From the NCBI GenBank assembly GCA_903813345.2, contig CAIIXF020000001.1, positions 1,116,001 to 1,180,000 on the forward strand: DNA of 64,000 nucleotides, in the 5' to 3' direction. The position numbers and the translations under genes are program-made. Source of the stretch: Owenia fusiformis. Taxonomy: Eukaryota; Annelida; Polychaeta; Sabellida; Oweniidae. The notes below the pieces were generated by a model, which ran no database searches, had not been told where the DNA came from, and was given only the letters and a program-made list of their open reading frames with translations. This document shows, in pieces, positions 6,201 through 62,905 of this stretch (position 1 is its first letter; every line of letters begins with the position of its first letter).

Positions 6201-6969
6201 TTGATTTGAAAAAGTCGGTCCACCCCAGTGTGGATCGACCCCACGACCCCTCACTTGCCAGGCGATTGCTCTACCACTAAGCTATATATTATATATGAAT
6301 ATATGTAAACATTTTCCAGCCGTGCGAATGTAGACCCTCCCTGTGGTGATAAGATGAACTGTACAGGTTTGACTAATGACAGGTATCCCTACTACGACCG
6401 TAACTGCACGTGGTATTATACATGTAGAAACGAAAAAATGATTGGAAACGCACAAGAGTGTATTCCAGGTAACACTCCTTCTGCAGTATCTGCCATTCAA
6501 TTTTGAAATGATTCCTTTGAAAGTGTGTGTACATTTTCTCGTTTTCATTGCTTGTTCTCTGGGTTGTTTTGGTTTCTGATACACCGTTACTAATCTCGAA
6601 TATTCAATTCGTATAAATCTGTATACCTTTTATATGATTTGTTCTAAAAAAGTGCACGTGCACATTTATTTTATATGTCCGGACTCTGTAATAATGCATA
6701 TTCTTGAGATAATATATGCATGGACAATTATATAGACAACGGTCATAATATATAAACCTCTCTGTTCCATAGATACTGTTTTCGACATTCTCCGACAGAT
6801 CTGTACAGTTCCCGAGGATGTCTGCCCTCCATGTGGCACAGGGGAAGGATTTGTGGAACCGTGTCCAACAGACGCACCGCAACATAAGGTTAAGGCAAAT
6901 ATAGACAAAATGGCCGCCCCGGAAGACGTGTCACTCTTCAGCCTGGAAGAACTTAAAGACCTGGAATAA
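3246..6969 (+). CDS. Secreted protein with two chitin-binding (CBM14) domains
   Basis: Four coding exons join in frame: 3246-3294, 5393-5561, 6320-6468 and 6773-6969 (TAA). All introns are GT-AG, and the product is 187 residues. Residues 1-17 form a signal peptide (MMKYIIAVVALSCF). Two six-cysteine peritrophin-type domains follow: C29, C42, C48, C58, C71, C81 and C87, C102, C108, C120, C133, C140, with the spacing and aromatic residues (YPYYDRNCTWYY) of CBM14. The roughly 45-residue tail is acidic and lysine-containing and ends SLEELKDLE. CBM14 proteins bind chitin in cuticle, gut lining, shell or mucus matrices; which one applies here cannot be told. Intron 1 (2.1 kb) holds a dead mariner fragment and intron 2 a SINE head. 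An AATAAA overlaps the stop codon. A second in-frame ATG at 3249 could also serve as start. Confidence 0.85.
4185..4766 (-). pseudogene. Mariner-family transposase fragment
   Basis: A 193-codon open frame on the - strand resembles the catalytic half of a mariner/Tc1-type transposase. It begins at NGQVNSKNKSYWG, passes through PLHSERCTTWVAMSKHGIMS and reaches AHSPDLNSQGFYLWG, the family's SPDLNPxDFFLWG segment. The block between is scrambled: the expected QQDGAxxH region is missing or frameshifted, so the frame is not a working enzyme. No terminal inverted repeats are visible at either side. It lies in intron 1 of the chitin-binding gene, in antisense orientation. The relic resembles the 858-1767 copy but is a separate insertion. 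Confidence 0.75.
6205..6288 (-). repeat. tRNA-derived SINE head
   Basis: On the - strand, TAGCTTAGTGGTAGAGC matches a polymerase III A box with the tRNA D-arm, and GGGTCGATCC matches a B box about 40 bp downstream. A loop reading CTGGCAA sits between them, where an anticodon loop would be (GGC, Ala-like). The acceptor-stem halves do not pair, so this is not a working tRNA gene; a tRNA-derived SINE is the better reading. The tail probably continues toward 6150. It lies in intron 2 of the chitin-binding gene. Confidence 0.6.
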
Positions 6970-15585: not shown

Positions 15586-16767
15586 TCAGTTGATATGTTT
15601 TACATCGACCTCGGGTATTGCTGTAAACGAAACGTGATGTCTTTCTCGTGCGCAGCTATTTTTTCCGGAAGCAGCCATCTTGTTTGGTGTACATCCTATG
15701 AACCATCGTGTTACGTTCCATTTTTGCATTATCATATTTAGGTAAAAAGCACGTTTAGTTATTCTATTATTTCTAAGTGTATTGTTCAAAGGAGGAAGAT
15801 GATCGAGATATATATCTTTACATGTAGCAACCTTAAGAGCAGCAAGTCGCATATTCATGAAAAATTCCATGTGCTCAATTGTTTTTATACTATCGTCCCA
15901 TCCTCCTGCGTTTATGACGTCAACACGTTTCGCAAGAAAAATATCTTGAGGTGCGTCAACTGTGTAACAATGAGAGTAACAAGGAACACTTCCTATGAAT
16001 GCATTCGGGTGATGTAATAAATGTATATCTCCATCGGGAGTTTTCTCTATTTGGAATGAGCCTGTAAATTTATGATTGTAGACTCCTGCTACGATGCTGA
16101 TGTCTGTATTGTCCAGAATGCTCACCATTTTTTCAAGATTGGTTAGATTTGTAAAAACAACGTCATCGTCTAGAAGGAATACATACTTTGTTTTAGCCAT
16201 TTTAAAACCCAGGTTTCTTCCTTTTGAAGTTCCTCCCCATATTTCTATTTGAACATACTTAATGTTATTGTTACTTTCCAGTAAATTGTTCCATTCCTTG
16301 CGTAATGATGATCCTGCGTAATAATCATCTACGACTATGATCGCCATTCCTGGGTACCATCGCCAAACGGATTCTACCATGCGTTTCACTAAGGCTAACC
16401 TGTGATGTGTCTTAGTAACCACTGTCACACATTCCACTGGATTTGTACACTCACCCATTCCCGACATAACCCGGGGCGCTTCTCTATTTTCGTTCAGTGT
16501 ACATGGGTATGAATCGCAACCATCGCTTTTTAATGCGTCATATCCAACTAAGTCAGATTCAGAGTCTGAATAAACTATATGATAATACGAACTGTTTTTG
16601 TTCTTTAACATTTTCTTCTGATTCTCTGATAAGAGTTCCGAAGGGCACCTGAGATCATATGACTTCGTTACGGTTGTAATTTTGCTTTCTCCAATAACCA
16701 TAATCATTGCATAAATCCAAATACTACATCCTACTATTAAAACTAAAAATCTCATCAATATTGACAT
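15586..16767 (-). CDS. Type II membrane glycosyltransferase, GT12-like (beta-1,4-GalNAc-transferase related)
   Basis: A single uninterrupted frame of 393 residues. Residues 7-26 are a hydrophobic anchor after a short basic start, the layout of Golgi type II glycosyltransferases. The GT-A catalytic domain runs from about 113 to 330. CVTVVTKTHHRLALVKRMV followed by WYPGMAIIVVDD (139-148) matches the opening of GM2/GD2-synthase-type enzymes. LLDDDVVF (198-205) is the metal-binding DxD. GRNLGFKMAKTKYVF precedes it, and GGWDDSIKTIEHMEFF (288-303) matches the family's conserved EHxEFF segment. Such enzymes transfer an N-acetylhexosamine from a UDP-sugar to a glycan in the Golgi; donor and acceptor cannot be fixed from sequence. 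The stem carries several cysteines and N-glycosylation sites. It has no introns, unlike vertebrate B4GALNT1, so a retrocopied or lineage-expanded family is likely. Confidence 0.8.
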   Translation of the reverse strand: MSILMRFLVLIVGCSIWIYAMIMVIGESKITTVTKSYDLRCPSELLSENQKKMLKNKNSSYYHIVYSDSESDLVGYDALKSDGCDSYPCTLNENREAPRVMSGMGECTNPVECVTVVTKTHHRLALVKRMVESVWRWYPGMAIIVVDDYYAGSSLRKEWNNLLESNNNIKYVQIEIWGGTSKGRNLGFKMAKTKYVFLLDDDVVFTNLTNLEKMVSILDNTDISIVAGVYNHKFTGSFQIEKTPDGDIHLLHHPNAFIGSVPCYSHCYTVDAPQDIFLAKRVDVINAGGWDDSIKTIEHMEFFMNMRLAALKVATCKDIYLDHLPPLNNTLRNNRITKRAFYLNMIMQKWNVTRWFIGCTPNKMAASGKNSCARERHHVSFTAIPEVDVKHIN

Positions 16768-40800: not shown

Positions 40801-43800
40801 AGTCACAATGTAATATTTACCATCTACTCTTCCCTTCAATAAATATTTGAGATCATTGTAGTGTCATTTTACCATACTTTCAAGATAACTCCATGTAATG
40901 GCGAATTCCTGCTCTAGGAAGCCATTTTGAATTTTCTGAGGCACAAATCCGAAAAACAATACCATAACCGTGATCTACTCTGAAATTCCTTCAATTTGAA
41001 TACAATATAGCCATACTTTAAGAGATCAAAAATTAATTGCAAAATCCCACATTAGGCGGCCATTTTGAATTTTACGAGGCCCGAATCAGAAAAACAAACA
41101 ATATTTGCAATCTACTCTAAATTGCCTTTCATTTGAGTATAATAAAGCTATACTTCAAAAACATCTCAAAATTAATGCAAATTCCTGTTTTTCAAACCCC
41201 CCATTCACGGCACCTGGGGGTCAAGGTGAAAAACATGGAGTATAGGTGAAATAGATAGATCTTGTGAATATCGTACTACCAAAATTTCAAATAATAATAT
41301 TTATTATTTTTGTTTAAAATGAAAAACATAAGACTTTTGCAAAAAATTCCCGCAACATTTAAACTGGTGGCCATCTTGAAAATTTATTTTTGCGTAAAAC
41401 TATTCACCAATATACATCTTTCCACCAAATATGAAGAAAATCTGTCAACTAGTTGGGATAATAAACAAAGAACTTACCATCAGGTCCAAAGTTATCCAAC
41501 ACCCCTTCCACAAATCCAGATATGTACATGGCAGCTGCAAATATGTTGGCTAAGAAGAATAGCAGACCTAAACTGCCTCCAAACTCTGGGCCAAGAGCAC
41601 GGCTTATCATATCTAGCATACGCTAAGGAAATAATTTGAGGAATGGTAATAGCTTTGTTTAGCAAATGCAACTCCAATATTTTATTTATTCTTGGGAAAC
41701 TGCTGAGCCAAACAATCTGAATTCCATAAATTTATTATATGGAAATATACTGAGGGAGGGACTGCCTAAATACCTTTACTTTACAAAAATGCCATTATTG
41801 ATATTGTATAAGATATTGTAGTGTGACCAGATGATGCAGACCATAGTGATATCTAACATTTTGTATAGAAGTTTTAAAGGATACAATATGCCCCACCCCC
41901 TTCCACTGCTCCATTGGTTGAAATGGCACACACTGAGAGGATAGTAAAGGCAAGGATCAGGTAGGCCAGGCAAAATAGTGCAATTGTTTCCAGTATACCT
42001 GCTTGGCCAACAACAAATCCTGAAACATAAGAACAAAACATTATTTTGAGCAGTTATGGGAAAATGTTAAACATTATGGGGATAAAGGCTAGATATGTGT
42101 ATAAGGATTTATTATCAACGATCTAAAGTGAAATCCGTGTAATTAGATCGTTTTTCTTAGAGAATGAGAATGTATCATGTATAGATATTTTTCATCACTA
42201 ATTCTTGGAGATTAACAAAAAAGAGATAATTAGAATGACAAACATTTCAAGAACTAAGCGAATAAAACGTCAGAATGAACTATTCTTGAACTATTTTGAT
42301 GAGCAATTCCCATTGAATTAAACAGATTTTACAAAAAGAATGTACATGTTCAATGTTCATGGTCATCCAGTCTATGAAATAGGAGATTTAGAAAGGATAT
42401 CATTCCATTGTAAAGTGGAACACTTACAAAGGTGTCTCACTAGAGAGGTTTTACTGCATATGGTTTTCATTCTAGTTTGAATTATAGAAATGTATGGGTT
42501 ATCCTAACATTGTCCTGAATTGACCGCGAATGTCATTGACACACTGAGATAGATACATGTATGAGTCATGACTGTCATCGATGGTTCTAATTTGTCCCAG
42601 AATATATTACCTAAAACTTTACAAAAAAGAATATTTCCTTTTCAAACACTATATTATATGATTGAATAAAAATGAATAAAAAAGGACCATGACTCGCTGG
42701 ATTCAATTTTGTCACATCTAAAGTCAACAATTCTTGCTTATATTTATAAGTCTATGCTTTTATACATGCTGACCTTGAATCCCTTTTACATTTGGTTTAC
42801 ATCTTGTATGATAAGACAATACATCATTTATCTTAAAATAGAATAAGTTATCATATAGACATGTAAATATGAAATATAACTACATGTATCTTGTTCACAT
42901 GTGATATTATAGATCATCTAAGGACCCCCTCCCTCTCCAGTCTATTGTTGTATAGAGAGACAGTGCAAGTTAATCAAGAGTTTATCCTCTAGCTTCAGAC
43001 ATTTCTTATAATCCAATATTTATTGAATACAGTAAACTGAATGTTTTATTCGGTACTGTGAAATATTCTTTCATCTTGATTTAAAAAGATGGAAAAATTA
43101 CCAAATTTGGGTCAAATGCCATCTGTGGCGAGGATGCCTGTCCAATATTTATATATAATCCCCTGGAGCTTCCCCCCCCAGGTTGTGCAACAAGTATACA
43201 GAATAGCAACAATTGCTATCCAGGGTCGTGTAACATTTCCCTTCAGTCCACTCGAGGCAATCTGCGCGAGGTTCCATTTTTGGTTCAGTTTTTGGCGCAT
43301 ACACATTAAATCCAGCAATTTAATTTGTTCAAATTATTATAACGCATGCACAATTTTATTAACTTATGTTTATTATTTCACAGCAGTCCCTACCCATAAT
43401 GCATGTTATATTGCGGGAATATTTTTGTTTAGTGTCAAAACAAAAAGTATACACCCAACACAAGTGCAATGACATAATATCAACCTGTCCCAAATTTGTA
43501 GATGTTTGTTGTACGAACTAAAACCGAACTGATCACTAGTGGTGTCGCGATTAATCGATACATCGCGATATACATCGCCAAAGCTGGTTCTGGCGATGCA
43601 TCGATGTCTGAAACAAAACATCGATGTTTTTAAAAAACTAAAAATCGCCCTTTCTTATCTTATTTTGACGCAAATTGCTTACCTTTTTTCATGTCTTATT
43701 TCATTTTCAAATGTTTTCTGATATTCTTTCGCTTTAAAACTGTTTTAGCTAGTCGAAATGAACCATTAATCTAAAAAAATTACTTTACTTTCATTTCACC

Positions 43801-45872
43801 GTTACTATGTTCCCGGATGTAATTTGTTCTGTTCGATATTTTAGTGCATAAGCGTTCGGTATTTCAGTGCACTTTTCTCGAACTTTTTCTCGATGTACAT
43901 CGCGATATGCATCGATGTTTACTACTGAAAATTGCCGATGCATCGATGTACGATTATGGCACATCGCGACAGCACTACTGATCACAGAAAAGCAATTTGA
44001 ATCATGGGAATGAAGTACTTCCCTAATGTAAAAACGAACCAGGTCAAAACCAAACCTCACGCAGATTGCCCCAACTCCAGTCTTATTCCATTTTCTAAAA
44101 AGAATTGAGATATCTGATCAAATAAAGAAGTTATAAAATGCAGAAATCATTATAACTGAACACGGATAGTGGGAAGTCCTCCACCTAGGAGGTATATACT
44201 TAGCAGTTATGTCCCTATCATTGAATATATGCCTGAGGTCTGTCACCAATATAGCCCGAGCTTGCGAGGGCTATATTATGACAGACCGAAGGCATATATT
44301 CAATGATACGGACATAACTGTTGTATTACATACTTTTATATCATGGATACGTTATATCAATGACGCCACGTGTCTGTGTGCGAGTAAAATTAGGAAGAAA
44401 TGAAACATGACGTCCCGATGACGTCATAAGATTGTCATGGTAAAAAGTTTGACGGCTATACAGGAATATATAGCCGACCTTCAGCTCCATTGACTTCAAT
44501 ACAAATGCTTCACTGGGTATGTAATACACCAGGTAATGCAGGTAAAAATTTAAAAAATATGAAAAAAATATGGTCACCTGTCCTCTAGATTCAATTTTTG
44601 AATGAATCGTAGCATGATGTACAGATTATTTGATATCATGCTATTCTTGAAAGATTTATACGCAAAAATAACTGGGTCGCTCACCTCTTATGCCTATATG
44701 TGTTCAGAAATCATCAATTCTCGTGAGTAAAATTTCTCCAGGCCATTGAAAGTTCCGCTCAGTAAATTGACAATTTCTACTGTGCATGTGTCAATGACCT
44801 ACTTCCGGTTGTGAAACACTGGACGAAATGGTTTGGTAAATTTCAAGCTATTTGATTGGTCGAAGAAATCACGATGATTTGCTTTATTCTCGCGAGATAC
44901 GGCGCTCCGTCCCCTTAAATTTTTATTTTGAACAACCATTATGATTTGGTGCATTATCTGACCAATAAAGCAGATTTGGAGGTATGAATATTTTTTTTAT
45001 TTTTCTGTTTAGTGTTTTCTACAGGCCCTATGTGTCTCAGGATATTTGTTTAAGGTTCAGCTGGAAAGTAACATTTTGGTAAAAAATTGCTATACCTGCA
45101 CATGTTATTTTCTGGTACAAAATTAAGTATGAAGGCATGTGTGTATTTCCTTGCTTTTTTCAGGAAAGTATCATGACACTGTCTACTTTTAGTAAACCTG
45201 GAAACAGATCAATGGAAGCTCCTGTGTTGTCTGGAAACTTTGAAAGAAAATTTGGAAAAATAGAAAGTGTGAAATATCAGAATTTCCTGGAGTTCCCATT
45301 GAACTCCTACTAGATATTCTTAAAGAAGACAATGTAATGAAACTTTCCTGAAAAAAGCAAGGCAATTGACACATGTTTTCATACTTTATTTTGTACCAGA
45401 AAATAACATGTGCTGGTATAGCAATTTTTTACCAAAATGTTACTTTCCAGCTGTACCTTAACGAAAACTAGACAAATAATTTATACATATTTTTTATTTT
45501 GGATGGAAGCTGCGTTACCTGAGAAATAATATAAGTAATATATGGAGGACTTCCCACTATCCGTGCAACTGAATTTATGGAGCGACATCGTTTTTCAATT
45601 TTTGACAGAAAACCTAAAACCAACCCATGGTTATATGCTACAGCATAGGTACAGAAAATCTTACCCAAACGTAGAAATAGCACAGTGCTAAACATAGACA
45701 ATGCCACTGGACTGAAAACGCCCGCAAATGTTGAGAGGTTCCTCCTTGAATTTGGGTGATCAGAATTTTCATCTTTTCCATTTTCAAATTCTTCAACTTC
45801 AGGCCGTTGCTGTAGAAGAGGCGTCTGCTCATCCATGATGTCGTCCTGTGCATTGATACTTGACCTGTTCAT
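34897..45872 (-). CDS. SLC12A9: Solute carrier family 12 member 9 (cation-chloride cotransporter family)
   Basis: Ten coding exons on the - strand join in frame to 926 residues: 45872-45665, 42019-41885, 41612-41478, 40359-40220, 39855-39669, 39343-39236, 38078-37967, 37549-37392, 37053-36846 and 36286-34897. Human SLC12A9 is 914 residues. Signatures match throughout: [20 protein letters not shown] (first membrane helix), [80 protein letters not shown] and, in the cytosolic domain, [20 protein letters not shown] and [16 protein letters not shown], ending [13 protein letters not shown]. An extracellular loop holds three N-glycosylation sites (NGT, NET, NYT). The family comprises 12-helix carriers; SLC12A9 has been described as a CCC-interacting protein and, more recently, as a lysosomal ammonium-chloride transporter. 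The exon 8/9 junction codes W where human has G. Exon 3 uses the acceptor GCTAG, not the upstream CTTAG. Confidence 0.93.
38000..38792 (-). repeat. 132-bp tandem array derived from SLC12A9 exon 7
   Basis: Five extra units lie upstream of true exon 7 in the same intron. GGGATCCTTAAG falls at 38062 in the true exon and then about every 132 bp (38194, 38326, 38457, 38589, 38721). Each unit contains the splice acceptor (TTTTAG on the - strand) and the first two-thirds of the exon ([20 protein letters not shown]...). It then diverges at ACATT|GTATGT, which could act as a donor. The units are nearly identical to each other and differ slightly from the true exon (GTCTAC for GCCTAC; GACCCTG for GACTCTG). 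Splicing any unit in would shift the frame. Confidence 0.9.
39105..39209. mobile_element. TGTCACCAC-type MITE, 105-bp form
   Basis: Bounded by ATGTCACCAC and inverted GTGGTGACAT. It lies in the intron only 26 bp beyond the donor of SLC12A9 exon 6 (exon end 39236). Confidence 0.75.
40872..41180. repeat. Divergent tandem duplication, about 138-bp unit, in SLC12A9 intron 3
   Basis: GCCATTTTGAATTTT recurs at 40921 and 41059. The surrounding sequence aligns (GAGGCxCxAATC, GATCTACTCT/AATCTACTCT, ATATAGCCATACTTTAA/ATAAAGCTATACTTCAA). Confidence 0.6.
42020..43528. other. SLC12A9 intron 1, left part
   Basis: Intron sequence between coding exon 2 and the hAT-type MITE. No nested gene is supported; the 127-codon + strand frame at 43089-43472 shows no family resemblance. 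Confidence 0.5.
43537..43977. mobile_element. hAT-type MITE, copy 1
   Basis: A 441-bp element with ends TAGTGGTGTCGCGAT and inverted TAGTGCTGTCGCGAT, flanked by the perfect 8-bp duplication CTGATCAC (43529-43536 and 43978-43985), as hAT transposons make. Near both ends the sequence is saturated with ATCGATG, ACATCGCGAT and GCGATGCATCGATG. It lies in SLC12A9 intron 1. No transposase remains. Confidence 0.85.
44161..45565. mobile_element. 1.4-kb inverted-repeat element with hairpin and CRE
   Basis: The ends CACGGATAGTGGGAAGTCCT and their inverted copy (23 bp) bound 1405 bp, flanked by TAACTGAA (44153-44160) and CAACTGAA (45566-45573), an 8-bp duplication with one difference. Inside are a large hairpin at 44204-44322 (CAGTTATGTCCxTATCATTG, loop GAGCTTGCGAG), TGACGTCA at 44419-44426 and ATTGG at 44855. 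A separate foldback element (45051-45460) is nested in it. The host intron belongs to SLC12A9. No transposase frame is seen. Confidence 0.7.
45051..45460. mobile_element. Foldback MITE nested in the 44161 element
   Basis: Inverted arms of about 145 bp: TAAGGTTCAGCTGGAAAGTA at the left against TAAGGTACAGCTGGAAAGTA (inverted) at the right, continuing through CCTTGCTTTTTTCAGGAAAG. The loop is about 110 bp. No clear target duplication. Confidence 0.7.
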
Positions 45873-60938: not shown

Positions 60939-61970
60939 TCAAAGTTTCATAAAGTCTTCAAATTTCATGAATTTGTATCCAATTCCATTTAGTCTTGACC
61001 CTGGACTACCATTGAAATATTCTACATTGAACTCTGGGTGTTTCTTGGTGTCCTCTAGAATCTGCTTGAATGCAGTTACATGACAAGCTTCATTGTTTGG
61101 AACATTATACACATCACCTTTCACTTGGTAATTTGAAAAGAAATAATTTGAATTTTTTTTAGGGGTTTCTTTCATGATAAGTGTCCCTCCTTTATTACTT
61201 GTTGAACCATTGATGTGCTCAACATAATTCAAGTCTATTCCAAGAAGAAGAATCTTCTCATATCCCAAGTATTGTCCAACCCTAGCAGCCATAGCTCCTG
61301 TTGAGAATTCACGAGCCACTTTTACCATATTTTGGTCATCAGCTGCTTTGATGTTTTCATAAAATTTTACTTTTGGATGAGATTTCAGTTGAGGTACTTT
61401 CTTAGCAATATTTGATCGAGTAAAAAAGAGTTTCGTGCCATGATTTTCAGAGTTTTCAATCATATCCATTAGCTCCGGGATGTGTTCAATGTTAACAACA
61501 GTATCAAACGATGCATAATATGTCGGCCACCAATCAATCTGTTTCCAATATCTAAAGGCTAAGTTCATTCCAAAGGTATCCACTCCTTTAGTCTTGAAGA
61601 AGTCAAATCCCTTCAGTGACGGGCCATTTCCAAATACAATAAGTTTCTTTTGTGGGCGACACTTTTCCATGTATCCAAAACACCACAGGGAGCACTGGTG
61701 ATATTGCGGTCTATCCTTGGTGCCTTCTATACATGACTGAGTATCATTGTTTCTGCACCAGCCACATTCGTTAGCACTCTGACACTGTTTTTGGTTTACT
61801 ATAGATTCACATATACTAGTTCTAGTGAAGCATCTTGAATTGTCGGATTTAGCACTGTGAACTGTACTTGGTAGCTCTCTTCCATAAAGTACATAGAAAC
61901 CTTGTATTAGTGCTAACATTCCTATCACCAATACTATGAAATATCGGATTGCTTGCGACTTATAACTCAT
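60939..61970 (-). CDS. Type II membrane protein, PSI-like stem plus DUF115/GT42-like Rossmann domain
   Basis: An intronless frame of 343 residues, nested antisense in ANKRD29 intron 6. Residues 9-29 are a signal anchor (RYFIVLVIGMLALIQGFYVL). Residues 46-104 form a compact cysteine-rich module (C47, C54, C63, C69, C72, C80, C93, C97, C104) with NECGWC, the hallmark of PSI domains. Residues 109-343 begin KLIVFGNGPSLKGFDFF (109-125), then TFGMNLAFRYW, STGAMAARVGQYLGYEKILL (223-242), GIDLNY, a CH pair at 296-297, and FNGSPGSRLNGIGY. This order resembles bacterial motility-associated DUF115 proteins and GT42 sialyltransferases (GNGPSL, S/TxG helix, LGYKEIxLxGID, late SPxSxxN). A Golgi glycosyltransferase acting on a nucleotide-sugar is the likely role, but donor and acceptor are unknown. 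A 42-bp tandem repeat lies 160 bp upstream. The metazoan stem shows it belongs to the host; the catalytic domain may have come from bacteria. Confidence 0.7.
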   Translation of the reverse strand: MSYKSQAIRYFIVLVIGMLALIQGFYVLYGRELPSTVHSAKSDNSRCFTRTSICESIVNQKQCQSANECGWCRNNDTQSCIEGTKDRPQYHQCSLWCFGYMEKCRPQKKLIVFGNGPSLKGFDFFKTKGVDTFGMNLAFRYWKQIDWWPTYYASFDTVVNIEHIPELMDMIENSENHGTKLFFTRSNIAKKVPQLKSHPKVKFYENIKAADDQNMVKVAREFSTGAMAARVGQYLGYEKILLLGIDLNYVEHINGSTSNKGGTLIMKETPKKNSNYFFSNYQVKGDVYNVPNNEACHVTAFKQILEDTKKHPEFNVEYFNGSPGSRLNGIGYKFMKFEDFMKL

Positions 61971-62124
61971 TATTTCTTTCTTTCTATTTTGGTTGTGGTG
62001 TAATTCCTTTCACAAAACTGTTATGGAGTTGATTATATTATCTTCTGACTGTTTTCTCATGACATGATGCTCTAAAGTTAATGCTTATAGGCTACTGCAA
62101 ATAGGCTGGTACTTGTTGATGTTT

Positions 62125-62265
62125 TTAGGCTGCTTCTAATGAGATGATGTTCATAAGTTGATGTGTTTAGGCTGCTTCTAATGAGATGATGTTCATAAGT
62201 TGATGCTTTTAGGCTGCTTCTAATGAGATGATGTTCATAAGTTGATGTGTTTAGGCTGCTTCTTT
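62125..62265. repeat. Tandem repeat, 42-bp unit, just over 3 copies
   Basis: TTAGGCTGCTTCTAATGAGA ... TGATGTTCATAAGTTGATG repeats three times with two-base differences (TGTG or TGCT) and begins a fourth time. It lies 155 bp upstream of the PSI/DUF115-like start codon, in its likely promoter or 5' leader. Confidence 0.9.
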
Positions 62266-62436
62266 ATGTTGCTGTTTATCTAAAAGTAAATCAGGTGCAG
62301 GTTCAAGTTGATGCAATCATGCTTATACTTTACCATAAAAAACATAATTTTGCACTTTCACAAAAAGTCATTTCACCATAATTTTCACAAAATATTTTGA
62401 TTTTGAAGAATGCGATGTATAAAAATATGTAGATAG

Positions 62437-62905
62437 TAGTGTTGTCGCGATGTGCCATAATCGTACATCGATGCATCGGCAATTTTCAGTAGTAAACATC
62501 GATGCACATCGCGATGTACATCGAGAAAAAGTCCGAGAAAAGTGCACTGAAATACCGAACGTCAGTGCACTAAAATACCGAACAGAACAAATTAATAAGA
62601 GTACGCTAGTACATCCGGGAACTTCTAGGAACGGAGAAATGAAAGTAAAGTAATTTTTTAGAATTTAATGGTTCATTTCGACTAGCTAAAACAGTTTTAA
62701 AGCGAAAGAATATCAGAAACATTGGAAAATGAAATAAGACATGAGAAAGGTAAGCGATTTGCGTCAAAATAAGATAAGAAAGGGTGATTTTTAGCAAATT
62801 TTTTTTTAAAAAAAACATCGATGTTTTGTGTCAGACATCGATGCATCGCCAGAATCAGCTTTGGCGATGTATATCGCGATGTATCGATTAATCGCGACAA
62901 CACTA
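62437..62905. mobile_element. hAT-type MITE, copy 2
   Basis: A 469-bp element with ends TAGTGTTGTCGCGAT on both sides (inverted), flanked by the perfect 8-bp duplication GTAGATAG (62429-62436 and 62906-62913). It is inverted relative to the copy at 43537-43977 and aligns along its length. Confidence 0.88.

Follow-up and report, generated by a model that had tools for sequence, protein, structure and literature searches.

The window analysed here is a stretch of 64,000 nucleotides of the annelid Owenia fusiformis, located at 1.12–1.18 Mb of a 62 Mb contig in a genome of 498.26 Mb. Positions 60939 to 61970 on its minus strand hold a single intact open reading frame of 343 codons, which starts with ATG and has a coding sequence without introns; the translation, Pfam and a structural model describe the product as an MptE-like/GT42-like transferase with an N-terminal anchor. 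The GC content is 0.350 for the window and 0.368 for the transferase gene. Pfam identified two neighbours of the frame in the window: a minus-strand gene of SLC12 type, and plus-strand ankyrin-repeat exons that reach as far as about 59.6 kb. A preliminary description of this DNA had placed the transferase gene antisense in an intron of ANKRD29, a placement that the exons found do not demonstrate. A strict motif scan from about 59.6 kb to 6 kb beyond the window end found zero ankyrin repeats; because the same scan missed one repeat confirmed by Pfam, this negative result is weak evidence.

Other features of the window include a second single-frame gene at 15586–16767 (minus strand), whose 393-aa product contains a glycosyltransferase domain of GT2 type (PF00535, E 4.9e-15), and a borderline tRNA match at 6226–6286 (minus strand; 30.2 bits relative to a cut-off of 29). 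Related sequences with similar translations at about 62430–62905 and 43790–44120 represent a dispersed element, the first copy of which has, by eye, inverted ends around TGTTGTCGCGAT. Immediately upstream of the transferase frame, at about 62100–62265, there is a short tandem repeat, part of which also appears by eye to precede the neighbouring paralog L002.

Residues 11 to 29 of the transferase (61884–61940, minus strand) are hydrophobic, with a mean Kyte-Doolittle value of 2.30, and an AlphaFold2 model of the protein contains a helix at residues 3 to 29. The reading frame, the hydropathy and the model helix thus bear out the intronless frame and signal anchor of the preliminary description, and because of this predicted N-terminal anchor it is plausible that the protein is a type II enzyme of the Golgi. 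Paralog comparison and the model place a cysteine-rich stem at residues 47 to 104 (61659–61832, minus strand), where model confidence is mostly low. There are indeed nine cysteines N-terminal to the catalytic domain, as had been described, but the conserved number is eight, since C47 is missing from a neighbouring copy that is 92% identical. The cysteine spacing 9-6-3-8-13-4-7/8 is kept in seven of the nine paralogs found in this genome (see below), L008 having a different cysteine-rich pattern and L009 a stem without cysteines. Because the cysteine stem is missing from the deepest-branching paralog, it looks like either a later addition or a feature subject to lineage-specific loss.

The label PSI, which had been given to this module, was not upheld. 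The Pfam PSI family (PF01437) matched two of the nine paralogs weakly (best E 0.18) and was absent among the matches of the window protein at E values up to 10. The PSI consensus has eight cysteines, with the motif CGWC at the fourth and fifth and three cysteines preceding it. The order in the stem is unlike this consensus: CGWC supplies the third and fourth of the eight conserved cysteines, and two conserved cysteines precede it.

The catalytic domain was delimited at residues 107 to 343 (60942–61652, minus strand) by Pfam, a profile search of the PDB and Foldseek, and it contains all of the motifs quoted previously: FGNGPSLKGFD, STGAMAA, LGYEKILLLGIDLNY and SPGSRLN. The Pfam family PF01973 (MptE-like/DUF115) matched the window protein with an E value of 1.4e-7 and 31.9 bits, which is significant although below the curated cut-off of 34.6 bits. 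The same family matched all nine paralog proteins at E values up to 1 and recovered only two of the nine copies, weakly, in a genome search (E 0.0085 and 0.90). The Pfam CST-I family (GT42, PF06002) gave an E value of 0.048 and 13.6 bits relative to a cut-off of 25, and because of this shortfall membership of GT42 is unproven. A PHROGs family named alpha-2,3-sialyltransferase matched with an E value of 1.2e-6, NCBIfam gave a chance-level match only, and phmmer with the window protein alone found no match in the PDB.

A profile built from 15 rows of prokaryotic or viral-contig origin together with the window protein detected nine PDB sequences, all of them sialyltransferases and seven of them CstII, with E values from 5.9e-9 to 3.1e-6; the Pasteurella sialyltransferase among them is presumably also a GT42 enzyme. 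The AlphaFold2 model has a mean pLDDT of 79.9, with values mostly above 90 in the catalytic part except around residues 201–220 and 291–300. Its top Foldseek match in the PDB was CstII (E 2.1e-7, probability 1.00, rmsd 5.5), the CstII matches having TM scores of up to 0.43 by query and 0.58 by target. The 10 PDB hits with E values below 0.001 were nine CstII chains and one Pasteurella sialyltransferase, a weaker match being the archaeal HPPK structure 8sd5 (E 0.017). No Maf structure was among the 50 fold hits shown. These searches uphold the earlier DUF115/GT42-like assignment, and, judged from the profile search and the predicted structure, the nearest solved relative of the domain is the GT42 sialyltransferase CstII.

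We aligned 46 sequences, consisting of 30 members of the subfamily to which the animal proteins belong and 16 other MptE-like rows. Residues N115, S118, P149, D156, G244, Y249, N275, Y281 and G285 are invariant in all 46; N115 lies in the motif FGNGPSL (residues 113–119; 61614–61634, minus strand), which pairs with GNGPSL of CstII. R140, N273, Y276 and Q282 are present in 30/30 subfamily rows and 0/16 others, and each of G225 and H297 in 30/30 subfamily rows and 1/16 others. The motif STG, which was also recovered by the PDB profile, occupies residues 223–225 (61296–61304, minus strand); T224 is present in 29 of the 30 subfamily rows, whereas all 16 other rows have V in that column and mostly T (14/16) in the G225 column. 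D286 is likewise found throughout the subfamily and is outside the four commonest residues of the other rows. The subfamily signature is GMNxAYR ... NPNYFFxxYQxxGD, of which the latter part corresponds to NYFFSNYQVKGDVYN in the window protein (residues 275–289; 61104–61148, minus strand). H297 (61080–61082, minus strand) is a candidate catalytic base: its column pairs with H188 of CstII in the profile alignment, in a low-scoring stretch (-1.1 bits), and H188 is reported as the catalytic base of CstII (PMC4202792). Alignment and predicted fold together support a CMP-dependent, GT42-like transferase. In bacteria the domain often resides within proteins of about 700–1700 aa (L016, L018, L019, L020, L022, L117, L123 and L127), which contain glycosyltransferase or sulfotransferase parts identified by Pfam in L117 and L123 and by eye only in the others.

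The genome contains nine stop-free copies of this gene on five contigs of 35–62 Mb each, with three on C1 (the contig of the window), two each on C6 and C3, and one each on C5 and C10; in each of the eight further copies the match is free of stops and is readable from an ATG. The ratio dN/dS of the catalytic part is 0.06–0.13 in the older pairs for which dS is computable and 0.08–0.25 in four young pairs, and that of the stem is 0.20–0.57 where defined. The enzyme domain is therefore under purifying selection. Synonymous sites are saturated between either L008 or L009 and the remaining copies. Two copies near the window gene, L002 (C1:1182235-1183263) and L003 (C1:1191072-1192088), have near-identical catalytic parts (dS 0.13) and divergent stems (dS 1.16), and the stem of L002 is shared with the window gene (dS 0.06). 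Such a pattern indicates gene conversion that ended close to the domain junction. A single-frame gene for a GT11 glycosyltransferase (PF01531, E 9.4e-39) was observed on C10 about 6.7 kb from L009 (L114:2127-3221, minus strand).

To find relatives, one genome from each of 84,980 prokaryote species was scanned with one short pattern, which yielded 223 pattern matches; 176 of these are relatives, of which 80 were kept. Thirteen of these group with the animal proteins in the tree: L015–L024 and L026 (E values of 3e-51 to 4e-36), L071 (2e-34) and L034 (8e-25), the next values dropping to 3e-16. Nine of the 13 are from Alphaproteobacteria and the rest from Pseudomonas, Thiocystis, one cyanobacterium and one Altiarchaeales bin. 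At E values up to 1e-25 the subfamily was present in 3/385, 3/292, 1/369 and 1/292 genomes of four samples, and five of these eight genomes are the seeds. Thus the subfamily is rare and mostly proteobacterial. Judged by title and the start of the abstract, no report of the family in animals was found in the open-licence literature; an apparent mention of DUF115 in a tardigrade paper proved to be of DUF1151 (PMC5531438).

The transferase tree was built from animal, prokaryotic and viral-contig rows, with an outgroup of 16 rows chosen from the more numerous other MptE-like loci and without second excerpts of loci already represented (L099, L100, L103, L107 and L108). The nine animal rows formed one clade (support 100/100) inside the 30-row subfamily, which was separated from the 16 other MptE-like rows with support of 100/99. 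The prokaryotic subfamily rows were monophyletic in 0 of 200 bootstrap trees. An AU test did not reject a single group of prokaryotic rows without the animals (p 0.113 with all 21 rows and 0.234 with a core of 16), and so nesting of the animal proteins is favoured by this tree, not proven. A second tree, from which four divergent rows were removed, again placed the nine animal rows together in a single clade of the subfamily, but the surrounding branches were less well supported and there was a long-branch warning. On average, the animal domain is 34% identical to the prokaryotic subfamily and 22% to the 16 other MptE-like rows, and the prokaryotic subfamily members are 37% identical among themselves.

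The animal transferases are accompanied by a second and a third gene of bacterial type. The only PF02348 match detected in the animal genome, by a search that an intron-split gene could escape, is on C5 at 11.1 kb from L008. It is a 475-aa frame in which a cytidylyltransferase is fused to a short-chain dehydrogenase (CTP-SDR), and the SDR part has NCBIfam matches that include aldose dehydrogenase, below the cut-off. Between CTP-SDR and L008 lies a frame for a D-2-hydroxyacid dehydrogenase of 334 codons, 329 from the first ATG. All three genes are on the minus strand and have coding sequences without introns, and two frames between the genes of this C5 cluster resemble, by eye and with no Pfam match, remains of a mobile element. 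The GC contents of CTP-SDR (0.45) and the dehydrogenase (0.43) are above those of their flanks. Such linkage was seen for one of the nine transferase copies. Enzymes of the CTP_transf_3 type make CMP-ulosonates, for example CMP-Kdo and CMP-sialic acid, and the cluster suggests that this animal attaches an acidic sugar of an unusual kind to its own glycans.

The same association was found in prokaryotes. A PF02348 gene is on the transferase contig, 1.0–16.3 kb away, in 14 of 15 subfamily-bearing genomes, compared with a chance expectation of 0.37 for such a gene within 17 kb of random places; in the fifteenth, the fragmented G383, it is on another contig. A PF02348 frame is also near L071 and L096, which are outside these 15 genomes. 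Among 18 regions of bacterial or viral origin, 16 contain a homolog of the animal CTP part (30–49% identity) and 12 a homolog of the animal dehydrogenase (32–53%); four of the 16 CTP-hit regions have no dehydrogenase hit, and one dehydrogenase hit is cut by the region end. Close homologs of the SDR part occur in two of the 18 regions, in a cyanobacterial sample, at 54–55% identity (64% over a shorter second copy), and three further hits have 28–33% identity. Thalassovita taeanensis has a nearly contiguous series of genes, in the order glycosyltransferase 2, CTP, dehydrogenase and transferase. The neighbours of the bacterial transferases include glycosyltransferase genes, and some clusters have an aldolase-type enzyme (HMGL-like or HpcH/HpaI) and two a HAD hydrolase. 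Flagellin modification, mentioned for DUF115 in the preliminary description, finds no support here: the nearest relatives that we found sit in polysaccharide-type loci, not flagellar ones.

In a tree of CTP domains, the animal sequence and 16 cluster-type rows were separated from 15 unlinked rows with support of 100/100, and the place of the animal row among the linked rows had support of 85/75. In this tree L142, from the fragmented G383, was counted as cluster-type because of its broken contig and a sequence of that type, and the linked CTP of G001 (L116), 44.5% identical to the animal CTP by tblastn, is absent. In the dehydrogenase tree the animal row lies within 12 linked rows with starred support, apart from 14 unlinked ones. 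As to the donor, the CTP tree, like the identities of the SDR part, leans towards loci of cyanobacteria and Azospirillaceae, and the dehydrogenase towards proteobacterial loci. The lateral acquisition proposed in the preliminary description thus gains support from the animal clade within a bacterial subfamily, for which the AU test is not decisive, and from two more genes of the bacterial cluster.

Plasmids provided a further set of loci. Of 19 plasmid records matched by the animal CTP domain, the best five were the same five that L008 had found, and gene order was inspected in three of them. Two plasmids, in each of which the transferase and CTP genes share one annotated stretch, agree in gene order and have, in a row, genes for a glycosyltransferase, an acylneuraminate cytidylyltransferase, a phosphoglycerate dehydrogenase or NAD(P)-dependent oxidoreductase, galE and an MptE-like protein. 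The third has a row of aldolase/citrate lyase, cytidylyltransferase, phosphoglycerate dehydrogenase (just 27% identical to the animal dehydrogenase) and HAD hydrolase genes, about 13 kb from its MptE-like gene. The MptE-like proteins scored, from three plasmids, are outside the subfamily of the animal (about 60 bits compared with at least 160), and therefore the pathway is wider than the subfamily.

Taken together, these observations make it fairly probable, in our judgement, that a bacterial cassette makes and transfers a CMP-activated acidic sugar, with a transferase anchored for the Golgi, CTP-SDR and the dehydrogenase as its partners, and H297 as the catalytic base. The cassette would have been acquired from bacteria, and this direction of transfer is the presumed one. 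Synthesis of the activated donor, in the cytosol or nucleus, would fall to the cytidylyltransferase-SDR fusion and the D-2-hydroxyacid dehydrogenase, a putative CMP-sugar transporter would carry it into the Golgi, and the nine type II transferases would place the acidic sugar on glycans, their activity, donor, compartment and acceptor all being predicted ones. The sugar may be an ulosonic or sialic-like acid taken from its CMP donor with H297 as general base. A proposed route would lead from the dehydrogenases (with an aldolase in some bacteria) to a 2-keto sugar acid, then to activation with CMP and transfer to a glycan. NeuB had no match in 10 of the 15 subfamily-bearing prokaryote genomes, some of which are incomplete bins, and in the remaining five it lay on a separate contig. 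A sialic acid made by NeuB is therefore an improbable product. No NeuB match was found in the animal genome either, where introns could hide it.

A fuller reconstruction is more tentative, and we regard it as rather less likely than not: an animal lineage may have taken up the bacterial cassette, fused two of its genes, kept the linkage on one chromosome, given the transferase a Golgi anchor and a cysteine stem, and amplified it to nine copies, with the result that its glycans would receive a CMP-activated, non-NeuB acidic sugar so far unassigned to animals.

The direct bacterial origin assumed here has a competitor in which the genes reached the animal lineage through a eukaryotic DNA virus or a protist, a route that seems unlikely to us and yet is the strongest of the alternatives. 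The best viral structural matches to the window protein were two proteins of Mimiviridae sp. ChoanoV1 with the same fold (E 1.2e-15 and 5.6e-12; BFVD A0A5B8HVK7, 26% identical over 272 columns, and A0A5B8IGA8), one of which is named DUF115. Of the viral-contig scans, two gave no relatives and a third gave three predicted viral contigs that carry subfamily members; among these three there is one weak match to a packaging protein and one contig with phage genes, and a capsid-like protein of L097 had no match in the PDB. In a phage collection neither the window protein nor L018 was matched, and L009 had a single weak match. Against this route, none of the viral-contig rows, one of which has a long branch, belongs to the animal clade in a tree without ChoanoV1, and the animal CTP domain had no match in viral contigs when searched with short exact patterns only.

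Slightly less likely again is that the protein is a GT42-type sialyltransferase that uses ordinary CMP-sialic acid of the host, CTP-SDR and the dehydrogenase serving something else. This reading draws on CstII as the nearest solved relative and on its donor, which is CMP-sialic acid. Against it stand the NeuB results in the animal and in the 15 prokaryote genomes, and the fact that the cytidylyltransferase accompanies the transferase in both the prokaryotes and the animal.

Old vertical inheritance, in which an early eukaryote had the family and most lines lost it, is improbable. A position of the animals outside the prokaryotic rows is compatible with the AU test, and the copies are old, as seen from the saturated dS between L008 or L009 and the others. 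However, the dehydrogenase is nested among cluster-linked bacterial ones, the CTP-dehydrogenase-transferase neighbourhood is a bacterial gene order, and even among the bacterial genomes sampled few carry the subfamily.

A pterin pyrophosphokinase, the activity for which MptE is named, is a very improbable identity: the Pfam name of PF01973 and the HPPK fold hit speak for it, but an anchor at the N-terminus suggests a luminal enzyme, the fold matches CstII far better, the histidine and the STG motif of the subfamily are atypical of the 16 other MptE-like rows, and the bacterial neighbours include glycosyltransferases. Fold rank and motifs led to its rejection. Contamination by bacteria or an artefact of assembly, which the intronless coding sequences, the bacterial affinity and the elevated GC of CTP-SDR and the dehydrogenase might suggest, is next to inconceivable and was rejected because there are nine copies on five very long contigs, the flanks on C1, C5 and C10 have 32–35% GC, the window copy lies beside exon-split SLC12 and ankyrin genes, the transferase has an anchor and stem, and the window gene has a GC content of 0.368 compared with 0.38–0.61 in six bacterial cluster regions.

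If the bacterial cassette does act as proposed, part of the animal's glycan coat would be built by bacterial-type chemistry, the CMP-sugar donor could be sought directly, and the bacterial subfamily would gain a testable role. Single bacterial genes in animals are known; the transfer of several genes of one pathway that stayed linked on a chromosome, with one enzyme redirected into secretion and multiplied, would, to our knowledge, be unusual.

Among known systems, the eukaryotic GT29 sialyltransferases, which use a CMP-sialic donor and have an anchor topology, share these general properties with the proposed enzyme, and Pfam gives no GT29 match to the window protein; a genome search for GT29 was uninformative because control genomes also gave no match. 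Maf is a DUF115 protein; neither the nine profile hits nor the 50 listed fold hits included a Maf structure, and in the clusters inspected no flagellar gene was noted. Maf flagellin glycosyltransferases are reported to put Neu5Ac or Kdo on flagellin (PMC7591256, citing Khairnar 2020). Alphaproteobacterial polysaccharide plasmids such as pAge77 of Thalassovita gelatinovora share the row of glycosyltransferase, cytidylyltransferase, phosphoglycerate dehydrogenase, galE and MptE-like genes, whereas their scored MptE-like proteins lie outside the animal subfamily. The MptE-like/DUF115 family (PF01973) at large has the same Rossmann-type domain; H297, G225, Q282 and Y276 are specific to the subfamily, being missing or nearly so from the 16 other rows, and the predicted luminal topology is a further difference.

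The closest parallel is with CstI and CstII, which are placed in GT42 (PMC4202792). The GNGPSL, TSG/STG and GID motifs align, and a candidate equivalent of H188 is kept, in a weakly aligned stretch. The identity is about 20%, with Foldseek TM scores of 0.38–0.43 by query and rmsd values of 4.9–6.5. The window protein differs from these enzymes in its predicted anchor and cysteine stem and in its CST-I score of 13.6 bits, and its family is linked to CTP-SDR and dehydrogenase genes rather than to NeuB.
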